From the NCBI RefSeq assembly GCF_963675165.1, contig NC_087385.1:3286501-3350500 (forward strand): DNA of 64,000 nt. The letters are read 5' to 3'. Origin of the DNA: Halichondria panicea. Its lineage: Eukaryota; Porifera; Demospongiae; Suberitida; Halichondriidae. The position numbers were made by a program, and so were the translations under genes. The notes under the pieces were generated by a model. It did not search any database and had not been told where the DNA came from. It was given only the letters and a program-made list of their open reading frames with translations. Shown here piece after piece: positions 28,349-55,400 of the stretch; within the stretch, counting starts at the first letter, position 1, and each line of letters begins with the position of its first letter.

Positions 28349-28705
28349 TAGATGTAGGAGAGAGGGATTGGAAACGGAAGTAGATTTCAATGTACTTCAC
28401 ATATGACCTCGATAAACATCCGCGCCTCGCTTAATGAGGGCTAATCTATTCCCCAGGAACTTCGCGGGTAACTGAGATTATTGCAAATCTAGGATTTTAT
28501 GAGTTGTCACTAGTATTCTGTCAAGTTTTCCAGTATCCAGTACAACTGTGCTTTATATATTTATATTTATATATTTATTTATTTATTTATCTAGATAGTG
28601 AATAACCCGAGGGGCCGGCAACGAGGGAAATCTCGTACAGCCCAACTTGAAATCAATAGAAATCAATAGAAATCAAGCATAGAAATCTGAAATCTTCTAT
28701 GAAAT

Positions 28706-31330
28706 CATAGATAGTAGAGGAGAGGGATTGGAAACGCATACGTAAATGCCCGGCCCATGCGTGTCACGGTTAAATTTCTTCCTTTCCTGCCTCTGTCACT
28801 AGAAATTGACCTTTGTCCTATGATAATTTAGTATTTTAATCTTTAACAGCCAAAAGACAGGCAGGAAGGCTACTACTGACTAGCCAGAAAGAGACATGAG
28901 ACAGGCAGGAAGGCTACTAGGATCAAGTTAGGCTACTAGCTTCCATTCGTGTTTCAGAAGTTAGTATTAGAGGAGTTTTCGCCATTGTATGAAATAGTTT
29001 ACAGTGAGATCAGACACAGTGTTAATAGAAGTTCAAGAACATGTTAACTTCTCTTTTATAGATCTAGATCATAAACAATTCATTATACAAACAATTTAAC
29101 ATAATTATTGTATGTCTACTCGTGATGTAAAGACAGAAATAATGATGCAATTTTCTTGAACGTCCTCTTTGGTATATAGTGGTTCAGCGAACGTGCTACA
29201 GTCTGCCGATGTAAACTCTGAAGAAGCATCATCAGATGCACACAATCTGAGATTAAAAACAGTATCAGTTTGAGTACCTTGGGTCTTCCACAACTGACAC
29301 TTCCATCGTTTATTCTCTCATAACTCTTCCCCAAAAAACTTGCCGATCCATTCGTATAACTACAAATAAAGTGTACAATAGCATGTAGTAACATTAAAGG
29401 GTCACTTCTAGCATATATACATTTGCTACTTCAACACCTACACTTCCACAAAATCCCACAAGTGAAAGTCATGAGTGTGATAATAAATTTGTCAGCAAAT
29501 ACTACCATGGAGAGTCAATCACAAAGTTGCTACATTTAAAAAACACTTAACATACCACTGTACTTGTCTTCAATCTCAAACAGGCTGTACTTCTTTTTGG
29601 AGAGATAAAAAAATCCCACAATCCTCAGCCAGTCAAGGAAAGCTTAAAAAAACTCATGAAACTCCTTTAGTAGACACTTCTAGGTTAAGGTTACAACTAT
29701 ACTAGGTACTAAGAGCATAGTACTAACTGGCATAGCCCTGTGCAATATCCCTGAGGCCAAGGCACTTCTCTGTCCTTCTAAAAAGATGCCTTGCTTCAGT
29801 ACCGCTACAGCATTGCGTGGGCGTAGGCGAGACACAGATGGGCATAGTACAGCGGTTTTCAGAGTTCTTGCATGTCCAATGTCTAGAGAGGAAGTCACTT
29901 GTCACGTGATATTCCCAAACATTTAAGGTTGGACAACATCACGAGAGCACAAATATTGCTGAGTCAGGCAAGTTTTTGTACGTTGAGTTTTCAATATAAA
30001 TTTTATAGACAAAATTACTTGTTACTAGTTAATCAGAGAAGTCTGAAATAGGAGTGTAGCTTTCCAGTATTATAAGGAACTATTATAAGGAACTGGTTGA
30101 AGTGGCTTGCCCCGGGCCTGACTACTCATTTTGTGTTGCTGCAAGCTGATGAGTCATACAGACAGTAGAATCTCTCTTAGCTCCAGACATCCAGTCTTGT
30201 GTTGCTAATAGTAGCTCACAAAACTATTTGAACTGCTTACAATCTCAAAGATAGCTTCAGCGGGATGCAAAAGGCTTGCAAAGGCTATTTCCAAAGGTTG
30301 ATTTTCTCCTAAATCATGTATTGGAAAAAAATCGGTTTGGAATAGGTAGAAATTCAATCTTGTTACGTAATGGTTCACGTGACAAGTACTTCCGCTCTAG
30401 ACATTGCAAATGCAAGAACTCTGAAAACCGCTGTAGAGGAAGGGGATTGGAAACGGGATCACGTGAGCTTATGCTTGCAATGTAAGGCCTCTGGGACCGT
30501 GCGCGTGGCAACCTATGACACCTTGAGGTGTGATTTTACTGGTTTTGAGGTCAAGAGAAGAAGAAGCAAATGAGAGGATACTAGGTAAGTAAATGTATGA
30601 ATAGCCCTAAAATTTGTCTTGAGGCATGGCTAGGTACAAAATGAAACATTATTACTAGCTAGAAGTCATGTTCACTCTTGGTAGCACACAAAATTTGAAG
30701 ATTTTACAACACTTAGCTTCTTCTTTTTATTTGTGGGGTAAGAACTGACATATGAATTGCATCTATTGTAAATGAATGGTTACAGTAGTAGTACATGATG
30801 TTATTTTATTGCTTCAGCTATATATTGGAAGTGGGGATATCATACTTCTTGAGTTATTGACCGATTTGTTGATTTCCACTAGCCATCTTTGCGGGGTAGC
30901 ATCTCCATAACTAAGCTGAGTTTATATTTGAGACTCGGCAATATTAAAGATCAATGTCCATATTATTGCTTCCAATCCATTAGATTTTGAAATCACTATT
31001 CATGCTCTGATTTTGTCACCGCAGTGTCGATGTGTGGCAAGAACTTGGACTGAGAAATCACTGGAAGAACATTGATAATTCATGTATAATTATGTTTAGA
31101 CCATGCTTATACCTTATATTGATTGTTCATTGTTGTCTATGCATGATCATAAGCTTGCTTTAAGCTTTTAGTTTAGCATAAACTGCCATTAGTGCACAAA
31201 AGTTTATTGCAAGCTCAGCACTTCAAGTTGCATCCATGGTCGCGGCTATAATTGAGATTGTAGCAAGGACGGTCCGTGTGAAATAGTGCTAATTGCCTGT
31301 GTTTCCAATCCCCTTCCTCTACTATCTATG
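28706..31330. mobile_element. GGATTGGAAAC-family element nested in the ULP1-PHD element
   Basis: Left end CATAGATAGTAGAGGAGAGG-GATTGGAAACG, right end ...TTTCCAATCCCCTTCCTCTA-CTATCTATG. The flanking 7-mers ATGAAAT and CTGAAAC agree at 5 of 7 positions. The right 0.9 kb (about 30430-31330) matches the complement of 51725-52644. Between lies other repeat material, including inverted arms at about 29845-29920 and 30370-30434 (CAGCGGTTTTCAGAGTTCTT). No credible gene is present. Confidence 0.65.
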
Positions 31331-31479
31331 CTGAAACTCACCCTGAAGTCCTTCAAGGTGAGCTGGTCGAGGCTTTGGTAGCCCTCGATGCCATAAAAAT
31401 GTTGTTATAATGTAGTAAACATTTGTGTAATCATAAATATGAATACTCACAGATCTCAAGCTGCTTCCACTTTAAGAAG

Positions 31480-32508
31480 ATGTCTGAAGCTCAGTCTGAA
31501 GGATTATTGCAGGTATAGCTAGCCTAAACTAGCTAGATTCCTAGCTTTGTCAAGCATACACATTTTTGTTACTTGTAGGAATCTTCATTTTCCGAAGCTG
31601 AAAAGGAGGCACAGCAATTAATGAAGGATGCTCTTCCCCCGTACATAGTAAAGTGCTTTACAACTGCAGGATTTGATACAATGCAAGTCATTTTGAAAAT
31701 GGATGTAAGTGATGAGCCGGGAAATTCGATGGAACAAATAGAACAATTTATCTCTGATGAACACCCTGACCTTTTAACTTCGATAAGCAAAAAACCATCT
31801 GGGCACAGGATTAGAATACAGCAGTTTGTTAGTGAGCTATGTGCTAAGAAACAATCACTTGGAAAGAGAGGTCACAGTGGACATAAAAATAAAGCATCAA
31901 AGAGAACAAGATTAAGTGATACATCAGATAATACTTCAGATTTTAAGGACAGTGATCAAGTTAGTATTATAGGTATCATTCGACATTGCCATTGGGCAAC
32001 ATTGGCGATTGAAGACAACGATATTAATCTGTACGATTCCGCATACTCTTCTATTAGCAAAGAGACTATGAAAACGATCGCCAACTTGGTTCAGTGCAAG
32101 AATGACTCGTTTACTGTCAACTTAATGAACATTAAAAATCAAACAGGAATCGCGGATTGTGCTCTGTACGCAATGGCAGTGGCCACCTGCTTGATTCTTA
32201 AGGATGACCCAACTACTGTTGTGTTTCACCAAGATGACCTAAGAACACACGTTTGTCAGTGCCTAGAAAAAGGCACGATAACACTGTTCCCTATGAAGAA
32301 GAAGAGGAGGCATGTTAGCCGACTGTGTAGAACAGAGACTTTATCAGTGTACTGTTACTGTCGCATGCCAGATCATGGCCAACTAATGGTACATTGCAGC
32401 CAATGTGATGACTGGTTCCATCGTCAATGCTTACAAAAGATACCTGATGATGATATAGATTTTATTTGTAACATTTGTAGTAGCTATAATTATATTGATT
32501 ATCAGTAG
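31480..32508 (+). CDS. ULP1/C48-like cysteine protease fused to a PHD finger
   Basis: Two exons, 31480-31512 (11 codons, donor GCAG|GTATAG) and 31579-32508, joined in phase, give 320 residues. Residues about 29-80 are a small helical domain (PPYIVKCFTTAGFDTMQVIL ... GHRIRIQQFVSEL) that I recall from sponge and cnidarian proteins. A basic linker (GKRGHSGHKNKASKRTRLSD) resembles a nuclear signal. The ULP1-like core has His149 in HCHWATLAIE, Asp164 in NLYDSAYSS, Gln199 and Cys205 in NQTGIADCALYA, an arrangement consistent with a de-SUMOylase-type C48 protease, although its N-terminal part is short. The PHD finger at about 268-311 has CYCR, CSQCDDWFHRQC and CNIC ligands. This suggests a nuclear protein that reads histone tails and cleaves a ubiquitin-like conjugate. 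It is the only gene in the TIR element at 28607-32774. The frame is intact, so it may be expressed; the start rests on the spliced frame. Confidence 0.85.
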
Positions 32509-32532
32509 TCCATGTATACAAATGTTGTGTAT

Positions 32533-32745
32533 TGAAATCTAACTGAAATCTAACTGAAATCAAAAATCTATGTGAAATCTACGCTGAAAAACCATAAATC
32601 TACCGAAATCTCTATGAAATCCAGAAATCATTGCAGAGAACAAAAGAAATCTATTGAAATCATGAAATCTTAGACGAAACCATGAAATCACTTGGAAATC
32701 AGGAAATCCAGCTGGAAATCACGAAATCATTTTGAAATCTCGTAC
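32533..32745 (+). repeat. GAAATC subterminal array, right
   Basis: Sixteen GAAATC hexamers at irregular spacing of about 8-25 bp, all in the same orientation, between the stop codon of the ULP1-PHD gene and the right TIR. A shorter array of the same hexamer is at 28627-28706. Iterated subterminal motifs are typical binding sites for an element's own recombinase or a cofactor. Confidence 0.85.
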
Positions 32746-32780
32746 ACTAAAAACACCCGTTGCCGACCCCTCGGAATAAC

Positions 32781-33937
32781 CATTATTCAAGCTCTATTTA
32801 CCGTTGCAACTATCTTCTTCATTGAATTTAGGTAAGTTTAATCTTGTATTGTACACATTTATCCCTTTTTCTCTGAAATGATTAATGTTTAGGTCGTATA
32901 CTTCAATATGCTTGTTGGTAAATCATGTGGTATCACCCCAAGCCAAAGAAAATTAGTCATACATCAGCTGGTAGAATTTAGTGCTAGAAAAAAGTTGAAT
33001 TAAAGAGCACCACTAAAGATCCCTTTTTTGGGAATACGCTAAGCGTTACAGAAATTTTAATTTTAGGCATACATTCCCTTATGATTGGTGATCACCCCAA
33101 GAGCATTAGTTTTGGATCAGGTGGATGTATAGCTTTTGTGTGCATGAATGTGTAGTCACCTATTTTTACCTCATAATTGTTATTGGCCCGGTAGTAGATT
33201 GTGGTGAAGGGCCTGTAGGCCCGAGATATTTAACTACTACAAATGCTGTTTCATCTATATTTTATATAGCAATACCTCGCAAGCCATGAGTACGCTGAAG
33301 AAAAGAAGACAGAAGAATACCCCTCCTCTCTACACCCCTACACGTCACCGCCCTCGTAAATGTTATCGGCTGTTCCGGCTATATATACACCCTTGTATAC
33401 CTCACCAGCTTCTCTCCATCTAAGACTGTCTGATTAGAGTGCTAAACTAATCATAATTATAGCTGTAATAATCATTTTTATCGTGTAAGTTTTTGTTAAT
33501 GTTGTTCGGTTTGATCCCACTCGTTTTACACTTAGAAAGCAACTAGCAGTGCTGTGGAGTGTTTTGCTGTCTCCAAGTGTATGTAATTATACTTAATGAA
33601 TTGGAAATTGAAATGTATGCTCACCAGCCTAGTATATATAGAAACTTCGTACAATTGATTCATCAAAAGTGAAAACAATTATTAAGAAAGTTACATGGTG
33701 TATTATGTATCTTGTCGTGTGAATGATCATGGTTATTGCCTCAAACTAGTGGACTTCTTGATGGTTTTCTTTTTCGTTGGCAGCAAAAGAGAAGCCTCTG
33801 ACAGTCACAAATACATTCACAATTTCAGGGAACTAAGCATCCTCTGATGATTTTATATCTACTGGGAAACAAGTATCCAATACCACTAGCTCTGCACATT
33901 CTTCTTACTATTACCATGTACCGATGCACTGTTGATT
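32781..33937. other. Gene-free stretch
   Basis: No domain recognised. A small basic ORF at about 33286-33423 is not supported by splicing or homology. GGCCCGGTAGTAGATTGTGG near 33185 recurs near 51405, a dispersed repeat. Confidence 0.35.
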
Positions 33938-49400: not shown

Positions 49401-52400
49401 GATGTGGTTTAGCAAATAAAATTGGATTACACTTAAATAGAGAACAGAATGATTCATTATCCTTCATTATCCTCGAGACACACAGCAAAAACGACGAAAC
49501 GCAATTTGGCCTGTAATGTCATTAAAAGGTTATTATTATTGAATTAAAGTTCAAGTGTTGTCCAACCTCTGAGCTTACATTATAGTTCACTGCAACTAGC
49601 TAGTCAGTTTCACTTAGACAACAAGGTAATGATGATTCAACACGAGGGGATGATCACCAGATACAAATTTGAATATTGTGACAGGCTGGGTTAATTTGCA
49701 ATCCTACACGAAAATTACTACACGAAAATTATACTATAACGTAAAGGATTATGCAACGAAATGCTTTTAGAGGCCATTAGAAAATGTTGCACTACATGTG
49801 TGTACGGTAATTATGTATTCGAGATAGCGTGTAAGTTATAAATATGTTTTTGATTTATACGTACATCAGGGGCGGTAGTTCGTTGGGTTCGTACCAACTA
49901 CCCTTTCAGCTAGTATTGACCATTACTAGCTACCTAGCTAACTGTACTGTTGTGACAAAGTCGTACAAAGTTTTCTCTGCATAATAAAAGGGTGGGGCTG
50001 GTCTCTCTACATAACAAAAGGGTGGGGCTTGTTCTCCCTGCATAACAAGAGGGTGGGGCTGGCTACTGGCTGCATTGATTTACACCTGGTTAAGTGATAA
50101 TATTATTATAACTAGCCATGAATCCTTGACTCCTGGTTTAAGAAGAGGAATGTTTCAGGTAAGAGAGTGCATGACACTGCATATTGAACGACACTGCATT
50201 TATAAATCAATTATTAAATTTTATTGAATTCGAAGGGAAAACGTGGTTAATTAGTGGGCGTGCCGCTTTAAAAGTGGGCGTAGTCAAAAATTCGGCACTG
50301 CGCCGGGTGAACTTCTTGTCCGCGCGGACAAGATTGTACTTCCAAGTTCCAGGCCATGATTATTATATGTAATGCACACTGATTTCGTGCCCATTATTGT
50401 TCCGAAACTCTTCAACATTTTCCATGAAACTAGTGCACAATTCCCAACCCATTGAATATGCATGATCTTTTTCTGGTGCGTCAGTACCTGTTTTTATTAT
50501 TCAGTTTGCTCTGAGCTGTAAACCCGGAACCAGCTGCCTATCATGGAATCCTTCTAGGTACACATGACTGTTGTTTGTTATTATGCGTAATTATGCCCTT
50601 AACATTCACACATATTTAAATATCCTTGTCATGCAGTATGTACCTCTCTGACACACCCCAACATTATTGAATCAAAGTGAAGAATATTACTCTAGTGTCC
50701 CTATTTGTTGCAAGTGATTTCATGAGCCAAGGTGGTGCTTGCTTGCTTAGCTGCTGAAACTAGTTAGAATAATATCAAGGGCATACGTATAAAAGAAAAG
50801 CGGGCATGTAACTCCACTATCAGTACACGTAGCTAGCATAGTTCAAATGTGGGCGGAGAATGTGTGCATTTGCATGGAGTGCTAAAAATAGAAATTTCTA
50901 GTTTTAGCATTTAATGGACGTTTATCCGCCCACGCTTGAAATCTGCTCATTTGGAGTTGCATGCCCTCTCTTATTTTGATAATAATATAATATTAAATTA
51001 TTTTATATCTTTTAGCAGCAACAAATACGGTGGACAAGGTAAGAGTAGCTTTTTAGGCGCTCAAAAGATAGTACCGGTATATACACACCTTCACCTTCAC
51101 AAGGCCTCAGCAAGGACGCCTGGTACTGACTGCTTGCGCATGCGCAAAATAATTTTCACGTAGAAAATTTACCAGATATATATACAGACAAAGAATAAAA
51201 ACTCTTAAAGTCATACACAGCTAGAGACAGAGCTCTACGTTTGGTTGCAGCAGCTACTTTCTTCAATCCACTTCTGTACATTGGGACGTCATTGGTTTAC
51301 TAAGCATATACGAAACTAGGGAATAGGTGGCGCATGTGCCGATACCAGGCTCATCTTCAGTGCGGCCTGTAATCGAGGCTATGGTGCCACAAGCTGTTTA
51401 TTGGCCCTGTAGTAGATTGTGGTCAAGGGCCGCGAGATCATTATCTATCTAGCTGATTGTGGCACAAATTGCCGTGTAATAACTACTTTGTTGCCTTGAA
51501 ACCATTTTCTGCATATAGACCAGCGTAGATATGATAACAATAATTATTTGGTAGTTTTATTGTTCTGTTTTGGGTGGCTGGAATTACAATAGTAAATTAG
51601 CAACAGTATGTATGACAATCCGTTAGGTTTGTCTGTTTGTCTGTTTGTAATTTCTGGGTCTACTTACCTGGATGTCATACCACTGCGTTTATAGCATGGA
51701 TAGCCTTCACACAGTAAGTTAAACCATAGATAGTAGAGGAAGGGATTGGAAACACAGGCAATTAGCACTATTTCACACGGACCGTCCTTGCTACAACCTC
51801 AATTATAGCCGCGACCATGGATGCAACTTGAAGTGCTGAGCTTGCAATAAACTTTGTGTGCACTAATGGCAGTTTATGCTAAGCTAAAAGCTTAAAGCAA
51901 GCTTATGATCATGCATAGACAACAATGAACAATCAATATAAGGTATAAGCATGGTCTAACATAATTATACACGAATTATCATTGTTCTTCCAGTGATTTC
52001 TCGGTCCAAGTTCTTGCCACGCATCGACACTGCAGTGACAAAATCAGAGCATGAATAGTGATTTTCAAAATCTAATGGATTGGAAGCAATAATATGGACA
52101 TTGATCTTTAATATTGCTCAGTCTCGAATATAAACTCAGCTTAGTTATGGAGATGCTACCCCGCAAAGATGGCTAGTGGAAATCAACAAATCGGTCAATA
52201 ACTCAAGAAGTATGACATCCCCACTTCCAATATATAGCTGAAGCAATAAAATAACATCATGTACTAGATCTACTACTGTAACCATTCATTTACAATAGAT
52301 GCAATTCATATGTCAGTTCTTACCCCACAAATAAAAAGAAGAAGCTAAGTGTTGTAAAATCTTCAAATTTTGTGTGCTACCAAGAGTGAACATGACTTCT

Positions 52401-55400
52401 AGCTAGTAATAATGTTTCATTTTGTACCTAGCCATGCCTCAAGACAAATTTTAGGGCTATTTATACATTTACTTACCTAGTATCCTCTCATTTGCTTCTT
52501 TTCAAAAGCTTCTCTTGACCTCAAAACCAGTAAAATCACACCTCAAGGTGTCATAGGTTGCGACGCGCACGGTCCCAGATGCCTTACGTTGCAAGCATAA
52601 GCTCACGTGATCCCGTTTCCAATCCCCTTCCTCTACTATCTATGGTTAAACAATGGTAGATTTCGATGTTAGAGCTTTGTTGTCGAATAAAAAAAACTGG
52701 GAAGCTTGAACTTGCACATTGGCAGCTAGCTAGCGCGGCGAGGCACCCTCCGTAGTTACCCGAGGCGCGCATGGGCAGCCACGGGTATAGTAGTCGTTTG
52801 GTTTGTCTGTTTGTAATTTTTGGCTGCCACCACAGCACTGGCGCTTATAGCCTTCACACAATAACTAATAATGGTAGATTCCGATGATAGGGCTTTGTTG
52901 TCGAATAAAAGCGAGCAAAAACTAAGAAGCTTGAAGTTGCACGTTGGCAGCTAAAGTCTACGTACTTTGATACTTTAACTGAAATTCATATACCTTGTTA
53001 AAAAGCGCTTCTATCTATATGCTGTAGAGCTGGTAAGCTCCAACCAGCTAAAAGTTAGCATTTTCCATGTAGAAGTCCGAGGCACACTTGTCCACCACAT
53101 AAAGCATAAATGAAGCCATAATTGGCCACATAACTTCCGGGGTCAAAATCAACACAAATAGACTTTAGCTAGCTAGCTACACGCGGCCTTTATTCGAGGT
53201 ACGTATTTACAGCTGAAGTGATCCCGTACCAAAAACAGTGAAAAAGGGTCACTACAATAAAGCTAAAATTGTGACTTGGACTCCGGGATCCTACTTCAAG
53301 AGTCATACTTCTCTGAGACTCTAGGCTTCTTTGCTGTGATCCTAGACTAGGACCTAGTCCACGTGCATGCCCTGTTCTCAAATGTTTCAGTATTGCTCCT
53401 GAGTTGCTGTGCTAGACAGTCAATAGATCATACATCACTAATGCACCGTATTATATCACTCTTCTAGTTTCTTTATAATCATGTCACCAGCCGAGGGTTT
53501 GCACTTTAGTGCTCTAGTTACAGCTGAAGTGATCCCGTACCAAAAACAGTGGAAAAGGATCACTACAATAGAAAGTCTGAATTGTGACTTGGGATCCTAC
53601 TCCATCCAGGAGTCATACTTCTCTGAGACTCCAGGCTTCTTTGCTGTGATCCGTGATCCTAGACTAGGACCACTAAAACTCCGTTCTCAATGTTTCAGCA
53701 TGCCTCCAGTCTGGTTTAGTTGCTGTGATAGACACCTCAGTCATACATCACTACATGCACTGCATTTTATCACTCTTCTGGTTTCTTTATAGTCATGTCA
53801 CCAGCCGAGGGTTTGCACTTCAGTGCTCTAGTGCTTGCTGTTGTCATTGTTCATCCATAAATAGAAGGTAGCACCTGGTTTGGGAAATCGCAGGATCCAC
53901 AAGGTGAACGTGGGTGATATGTAGCCCACAATCGTGACGTAAGGTATTCTCAGACTATTGTACTGAGACACACTGGTACCAAGCTACTGTAAGTCTAGTC
54001 AGGGAACCAGCGTGGCCAGCTCTGGTGACAGCTAGTAGCTAGCTACCAGTGGCGTAGCTAGGATTTTGGGAAGGGAGGGTTCAAATCGGTTGAGCAGAGC
54101 CAGAGTATGCAAGCAAACGCTGAATAACATGACATTTTACCAGGTCATCACTTTTCCTCAGCAATCAACATGTGCATTACATGGCCCTGCCTACATTTCC
54201 ATTGAATGACATCATTAGAATATATTGACAGATCACAGTGATTCAAGCTAAGTTGGAGTTAATGGATCACAAAGGGGGGGGATCTATCCTCGTCAGCCCC
54301 CTCTGCCTATGCCACTGGCTACCTAGCTGCTAGATATGATAATGATGACTAAGCTCTTTCAAGATTGTATGGTATAGAATCTAAACACACGTCTAGACTA
54401 AGTCTATTTGTGTTGAGGTTGACTTTTAGCTGGTTGAAGCTTAGCTCTACAGCACATAATTATAGATAGAAGTGCTTTTAACAAGGAATTCATATGAAGT
54501 GTATGACCACATTATGAAGCATTTTCTATGTACAGTCAGAGATACAAAAGAAAGGGGATTGGAAACGACCGCCCACGCCCTATGTAAAAGGACTGACATC
54601 CGGTGAAGCACTCCGAATTATTGCGCTCACAAATAATTACATGGAGGACTGCGCTACGGTTTTGTATCCCTGGTTTCTAGCTCTCCTATCCACTAGAGAT
54701 CACTCAGGGCCTGGGAGATACTTGAGAGAAGTAAGCTTATACCACTGACAAGCTCTAAGTCCGTTGTCTTTACTCTGTTTCCAATTTTTTTGAGTTTAGC
54801 TTGAATTACTCTATGTCAACTTTTCTCTGTCCCTCCTATGAAGTCAAAACAGCAAAGGACATTGCTTGACTTGGTTATTATGTATCTAAGTGCTACATAG
54901 AATGGCTTCATGCTATAAATAAGCTGTACTGTTCATAAACGTTTGCAGTATAGTCCTTCAAACTGCTTTAGTATACTTTTAGACACACCACGGGCCTGTC
55001 CCTCCTACGACTTCATAGTAAAGGCTATTTCTTCTTGCATAGCATTTATTTGTCTAGTAATAGTGGCTGCGTGGCTTAGTCGACTTTTTAGAGCTAAATT
55101 CTCTTTACTTTTTAGAAAAATCAACATTAAAAATGATCAATTTCACTGTTTCTATGTACAGCACATTGTAGAGCAGTCAAGACATGCATGCTGACTATAA
55201 ATATAATCCTTTGTAGTTTTAGCCACGCCCTATAACGCGGAATGCTTCACGCAAAAATTTCGTAAAAATTTCGTTTCCAATCCCCTTTCTTTTGTATCTC
55301 TGGTACAGTAGAACCTCGCTAATCCGGACCCCTTTAATCCGAAACCTCGCAAATCCAGACAAACCGGCAAACTGAAAAAGAGGAGGAGCTGTCAGTAGAA

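Follow-up and report, generated by a model that had tools for sequence, protein, structure and literature searches.

Structure of the element in the analysed window

The DNA analysed here is a stretch of 64,000 nucleotides from the genome of the sponge Halichondria panicea (contig NC_087385.1, positions 3,286,501 to 3,350,500 of the forward strand; hereafter the window), and positions 28608-32773 of it are occupied by a transposon carrying a gene that joins part of an Ulp1 protease to a PHD finger. The transposon is bounded by 16-bp terminal inverted repeats (CGAGGGGYCGGCAACG, 28608-28623 and 32758-32773) with 15 of 16 positions paired; its end sequence is CGAGGGG[C/T]CGGCAACG, with the one mismatch lying between left and right. 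An exact 8-bp target duplication, GAATAACC, flanks the repeats at 28600-28607 and 32774-32781. A preliminary description of this DNA had proposed inverted repeats at both ends, which is correct, but gave them 19 bp and placed an exact 6-bp duplication, AATAAC, beside them. The 6-bp reading was rejected, as the 8-bp one is exact in seven of nine copies with differing outer bases; the shorter duplication resulted from counting one target C/G per side into the repeat. We assign this outermost C/G to the target DNA because sister copies carry other bases there and still show an exact 8-bp duplication.

Directly oriented GAAATC arrays at both ends, also part of that description, are indeed present: the motif occurs in one orientation seven times in the left 100 bp and 16 times in 32521-32774, against a background of 0.55 per kb (both strands counted) in the remaining window. 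Pfam places two domains above cut-off in the open frame 31621-32508, Peptidase_C48 (E 1.9e-6) and PHD (E 1.5e-5). A putative GT..AG intron, 31513-31578, links 31480-31512 in frame to 31579-32508 and recurs with one base different in the sister copy L001 (loci are numbered with L, contigs with C). The features of the window copy are listed below with their strand and the evidence for them.

28600..28607, no strand: left target-site duplication GAATAACC (exact repeat)
28608..28623, + strand: left terminal inverted repeat CGAGGGGCCGGCAACG (end-pattern search, copy comparison)
28627..28706, + strand: left subterminal array of 7 GAAATC in gene-sense (repeat count)
28707..31330, no strand: nested foreign DNA without counterpart in L001 (copy comparison)
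31331..31479, + strand: 5' non-coding region common to L001, L002 and L005 (copy comparison)
31480..31512, + strand: putative exon 1, 11 amino acids (sequence only)
31579..31959, + strand: first part of putative exon 2, transposase N-terminal domain and acidic linker (matches L022, L023, L027 and L028)
31960..32250 (3' limit approximate), + strand: truncated Ulp1/C48 domain with His, Asp, Gln and Cys kept and the N-terminal part gone (Pfam, alignment)
32353..32478, + strand: PHD finger (Pfam)
32534..32739, + strand: right subterminal array of 16 GAAATC in the orientation of the left array (repeat count)
32758..32773, - strand: right terminal inverted repeat, CGAGGGGTCGGCAACG on the - strand (end-pattern search, copy comparison)
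32774..32781, no strand: right target-site duplication GAATAACC (exact repeat)

The locus does not hold the compact unit first described, as it includes the insert 28707-31330. L001 is nearly identical to the window copy (98% match across the gene, 100% over the left 100 bp) and holds 154 other bases in place of this insert, while window 28607-28706 is identical in L001 and L002. Summing the shared blocks gives an element of probably about 1.7 kb when inserts are left aside. Part of the nested DNA (about 30433-31330) recurs with 96% identity at window 51725-52636; these two segments are copies of another repeat element with inverted-repeat-like ends.

Copies in the genome

A pattern search of the 131-Mb genome, allowing up to two mismatches, located near-matching ends at 42 sites, compared with two for a reversed-pattern control, and this copy number excludes a chance origin of the ends. 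The element is thus a real, multi-copy mobile element. The preliminary description had named a lack of other copies with the same ends as the observation that would speak against a transposon, and such copies do exist; it was right in seeing a transposon of many copies that has no transposase of its own and presumably depends on a relative for its movement. Two main end types are found among the copies, ..[C/T]CGGCAACG and ..TCCGCAACG.

Exact 8-bp duplications flank seven of the nine two-ended copies, the window copy being one of the nine: besides it, L001 (CTTCTACC), L002 (TGGCAGCC), L003 (GCAAATAC), L004 (AGTCCAAT), L005 (AACAGTAT) and L006 (ATGATACC). The two-ended copies that have no exact duplication are L007 and a 1660-bp copy in L008; the count covers neither the single-ended L009-L015 nor the end of L008 that has no partner, nor the unfetched end-match sites. 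Short relatives resembling miniature inverted-repeat transposable elements are also present, namely the 114-bp L007 and, on C4, two pairs in which the end matches are separated by about 0.4 kb. The subterminal arrays of L003, L004 and the L008 copy, all of the TCCGCAACG group, are of GGAATC/GAATCT type.

Within C13:3762184-3858572 the subterminal array of the left end recurs in five similar copies at intervals of about 17-43 kb, perhaps as a result of tandem duplication. In one window-type copy, the left end (in L025) is separated from the gene remnant by frames in L024 that, judged by eye, resemble a Helitron replicase/helicase with an OTU-like part.

The fusion gene and its probable origin by internal deletion

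The gene was first described as an intact two-exon gene with a C48-type His-Asp-Gln-Cys set and a complete PHD finger. The open frame, the in-frame putative intron, the four catalytic residues and the PHD finger are all there, but the protease domain is truncated. Its first element is the strand that leads into the catalytic His, and it lacks the 'WLNDNH' part still seen in L022, L023 and L027; the stretch with WLNDNHVNCAQ, with which the domain opens in L022 and L027, is gone. The gene therefore lacks a complete Ulp1/C48 catalytic domain, having kept the four catalytic residues and lost the N-terminal part. The N-terminal region of Ulp1/SENP proteases contributes to substrate binding, and its loss makes protease activity of the window protein doubtful.

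The remainder of the protein points to the source of the gene. Its first ~120 residues match the N-terminus of a long transposase (39% identity to residues 19-150 of the 1392-residue frame of L022), and its end matches the Ulp1-PHD end of the 1148-residue frame of L027 (34%). Both parts are found in the same order in L022, L023, L027 and L028. An alignment of the N-terminal regions of the window gene, L022, L023 and L028 has 27 invariant columns. In the window gene, the N-terminal domain runs straight into the strand before the catalytic His of Ulp1, which is followed by the PHD finger; the ends of the element are similar to those of the long ones, both ends of the gene are kept and the middle is missing. 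Because both protein ends match one long transposase whose element has similar ends and arrays, we conclude that the window element is very probably a non-autonomous, internally deleted derivative of a P-element-like DNA transposon of the cut-and-paste type. Its fusion gene most likely arose by deletion, from the joined 5' and 3' ends of the P-like transposase gene.

The N-terminal domain itself had no Pfam match in any of the four members, and its comparison with structures gave the SAM-containing ARAP2 at E 0.83 among 12 equally weak, non-significant matches (the ARAP2 chain concerned is presumably its SAM domain). Structure prediction for the window protein alone was uninformative (mean predicted local distance difference test score 34).

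Other copies have undergone further loss. L002, L009, L010 and L011 share one 350-bp deletion, corresponding to window 31821-32170, that puts the gene out of frame and leaves none of the four catalytic residues; in L005 a different deletion, likewise frame-shifting, has cost the gene His and Asp but spared Gln and Cys. L009, L010 and L011 have the same right flank and no left end was found for them, so that they look like duplicates of one insertion, while L002 has another flank and an exact 8-bp duplication. One and the same deletion is thus found at two sites of insertion, which means that the deleted form itself moved and that the Ulp1 protease is not needed in cis for transposition.

These observations bear on the proposal, made in the preliminary description, that a satellite carries a stand-alone Ulp1-PHD gene which supplies a SUMO- or chromatin-directed function. 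A transposon that had independently acquired such a gene for a role in transposition would account for the retention of the catalytic His, Asp, Gln and Cys and of the PHD finger in the window copy and L001, and the Ulp1-PHD module is common among transposons of this genome (at least 133 matches). Both protein ends, however, match a single transposase gene, the N-terminal part of Ulp1 has gone, and the form free of catalytic residues occupies two insertion sites. Nothing in our analysis supported a SUMO- or chromatin-directed function, and we regard an independent acquisition as highly improbable.

Long relatives and their transposase

The proposed derivation of the window element by internal deletion is based on four long elements, L022 (7482 bp), L023 (8378 bp), L027 (6132 bp) and L028 (6032 bp), which end on both sides in CGAGGGGTC[CA]G[AC]CACT. 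The preliminary description had asked whether longer copies encode a transposase; these relatives do encode one, but their ends are similar, not identical, to those of the window element. Exact duplications of 9 bp (L022 and L027) and 10 bp (L028) flank them, with none exact in L023. Short and long elements alike carry one-direction AAATC-type arrays in gene-sense within 300 bp of each end, written GAAATC in the window and AAATC in L023; in L022, L027 and L028, where the genes are on the - strand, they appear as GATTT arrays on the + strand.

The P-type helix-turn-helix (HTH) model Tnp_P_element (PF12017) was above cut-off in all three long frames scanned (L022, E 1.7e-6; L027, E 1.5e-5, covering model positions 26-72 of 73; L028, E 5.2e-7). 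The shorter L023 piece, which lacks the HTH region, matched no Pfam model, and the window copy has lost this region as well. Genome-wide, PF12017 gave seven matches, five of which belong to the L022-type lineage. In the alignment of the transposases (A1), D526, D693 and E871 are invariant, and from known motifs they are the putative catalytic D, D and E. The uninterrupted 1148-residue frame of L027 has the larger part of the HTH, followed by the RNase-H-like core, Ulp1 and PHD, with Ulp1 above cut-off and PHD just below it (E 4e-4), the N-terminal part lying in other upstream frames. In L022, a single 1392-residue frame extends from the N-terminus through the start of Ulp1, and the remaining Ulp1-PHD follows further on. 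More decayed transposase genes of the L022 kind are found in L030 and L031, for which the threshold used revealed one end and none, respectively. Taken together, the long frames indicate the domain order N-terminal domain of unknown type, Cys/His cluster (recognised by eye), P-type HTH, RNase-H-like core, Ulp1 and PHD.

The lineage shares with the Drosophila P element and KP, and with the zebrafish P-like elements (THAP9), a P-type HTH and, with a match below cut-off, a putative RNase-H-like transposase core, and it shares with P elements the 8-bp duplications (in the short copies), subterminal sites and many internally deleted non-autonomous copies (PMC7776569, PMC12393704). Unlike P elements, it has no detected THAP or GTP-binding domain, and its transposase bears a C-terminal Ulp1 and PHD; it is also set apart by its 16-bp ends, its long direct AAATC arrays and, among the long copies, duplications of 9-10 bp. 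Its transposases probably are related to those of P elements and would work in a similar way. What is unusual at this locus is the parent lineage, whose P-like transposase is fused to Ulp1-PHD and shows no detected THAP or GTP-binding domain. The window element, first put forward as the best candidate for a new system, is better understood as a crippled passenger within a P-element-like family. In a literature search we met no description of a P-like transposase with Ulp1 or C48; this is weak evidence, as the search covered neither Repbase nor most subscription papers.

Evidence against a P-like origin and alternative readings

Several observations weigh against an internally deleted P-like element. 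The frames of L022, L027 and L028 match the model of a P-type RNase-H core (PF21787, RNaseH_N) with E values of 0.001-0.009, below cut-off. The P GTP-binding domain (PF21788) has 49 matches genome-wide and none in the L022-type lineage, and solved structures yielded no P transposase to a search with either a single transposase sequence or a profile. The short copies have target duplications of 8 bp, the long ones of 9-10 bp. A full-length parent with exactly the window ends was sought by both ends, by gene DNA and by transposase and was not found, and among the best candidates listed no transposase match lay within 10 kb of a window-type end. In addition, no THAP domain was seen in the frame of L022, even with E values of up to 10 admitted.

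The duplication length also bears on the possibility that the lineage has the same history of internal deletion but is of the Mutator-related Rehavkus type. Rehavkus elements combine a PHD finger with 9-bp duplications and a minisatellite before the 3' repeat (PMC6446971), and the long copies share these features, which likewise counts against a P-like assignment. The catalytic domain of Rehavkus is Mutator-related according to the same source, while the L022 frame matches P-type models only and no Mutator model at E up to 10; true Mutator frames of this genome do match PF20700. With Rehavkus compared by description only, we consider this assignment very unlikely.

In two copies, the window copy and L001, the frame is still open and none of the four catalytic residues has been lost; the two places where they differ in length, by 9 and 3 bases, are both in frame. 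This, too, counts against the deletion reading, and the in-frame differences mildly favour a frame that has been maintained in these copies. Such maintenance would fit a repressor of the KP kind, that is, a fusion protein of the same origin which was selected for dimerising or competing with the full-length transposase; this overlaps with the reading of the element as a deletion derivative. In Drosophila, small P elements that are non-autonomous often have the capacity to encode repressors, for instance the 207-residue KP protein (PMC7776569), and the window copy and L001 retain an intact frame with the transposase N-terminal domain. The two differ, though, at 12 of 319 aligned codons, eight non-synonymous and four synonymous (two of the four beside gaps), which gives a ratio of non-synonymous to synonymous substitution rates (dN/dS) of 0.74 and no clear purifying selection, in a sample too small to decide. 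The five other copies with both gene ends (L002, L005 and L009-L011) are frame-shifted, and the loss of the Cys/His cluster of the transposase leaves DNA binding uncertain. Selection for a KP-like repressor thus seems unlikely, if by no means far-fetched.

Ulp1-PHD in other transposons

The Ulp1-PHD module was previously reported for Ginger1 and Mutator, and here it is found on a P-like transposase lineage. Ginger1 (Ginger1-9_HM) resembles this lineage in having Ulp1 and PHD at the transposase C-terminus, but its integrase is of Gypsy type, its ends are TGTNR and its duplications are CCGG/CCGT, 4 bp long (PMC2836005); the duplications here are of 8-10 bp. As a possible sign of Ginger1 in this genome, our analysis met only an SH3 match below threshold, next to the Ulp1-PHD frame of L036/L042. 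Mutator-like elements with Ulp1-PHD have the same C-terminal module fused to their transposase, and the legend of Figure 1 in PMC2836005 refers to an alignment of Ulp1 and PHD of Mutator transposases. In contrast to the P-like lineage, they use the PF20700 Mutator transposase. In L032 and L033, Mutator is above cut-off in one frame with Ulp1-PHD, the latter two domains being below cut-off yet aligned by tblastn, and L044 has a Mutator-like transposase upstream of Ulp1-PHD. A 730-residue frame upstream of Ulp1-PHD in L045 had no Pfam match.

The third association is with Zisupton/KDZ elements, in which 8-bp duplications also occur. An Ulp1-PHD frame lies beside a KDZ match in this genome as well, but unlike in the P-like lineage it is convergent to the KDZ gene and unfused. 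KDZ transposase pieces with convergent Ulp1-PHD less than 3 kb away are found in L016, L017, L018 and L019. A 336-residue frame of L020 (2773-3780, - strand; C4:4758500-4767500), near KDZ remnants, matches the Pfam RAG1 importin-binding domain (PF12560, E 5.3e-12). That the window element derives from a KDZ transposon would be consistent with the convergent Ulp1-PHD match that 4 of 27 KDZ loci (rows merged by eye) have less than 3 kb away. Against this, L016-L021, six of the 27 loci, have no inverted repeats flanked by an 8-bp duplication, L016-L020 have no CGAGGGG-type end, and among the fetched loci the window N-terminal domain matched the L022-type lineage only. We dropped a KDZ/Zisupton origin on the first two of these grounds, and regard it as extremely improbable.

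One genome thus holds at least three kinds of transposase, P-like, Mutator and KDZ-linked, with Ulp1-PHD, which suggests that this module has repeatedly been exchanged between transposons as a useful accessory. Its role in transposition could be tested by comparing the kinds of transposase.

Proposed mechanism and mobilisation

In the history that we favour, derivation from a P-like transposon by internal deletion, the ancestor of the window element would have lost the middle of its gene, possibly during the repair of an excision gap, so that the N-terminal domain was joined to the last part of Ulp1 and the PHD finger. A related transposase may then recognise the ends and the AAATC-type arrays in trans and insert the element with an 8-bp stagger. 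We infer that the arrays are putative transposase-binding sites because P elements have subterminal sites for their transposase (PMC7776569). The leftover fusion protein would be mostly a by-product and at most a KP-like regulator of the transposase. An apparently new gene-bearing transposon would in this way become an example of how internal deletions make seemingly novel fusion genes. A more elaborate version, in which a distinct P-related clade without THAP and GTP-binding domains, but with an Ulp1 and PHD of its own, has satellites whose two-end protein regulates transposition in trans, is speculative and rather improbable.

The direct parent may be absent, too diverged, or missed among the best candidates listed. 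The sole exception to the separation of transposase matches from window-type ends is the L015 locus, where a TCCGCAACG end (one end found), differing by one base from that of the window element, lies within 10 kb of P-like transposase pieces; L015 therefore links a near-window end type to a P-like transposase. Two P-type HTH loci, C11:3033538 and C1:2802743, have GTP-binding-domain matches about 1 kb away, and more canonical P elements therefore coexist in this genome.

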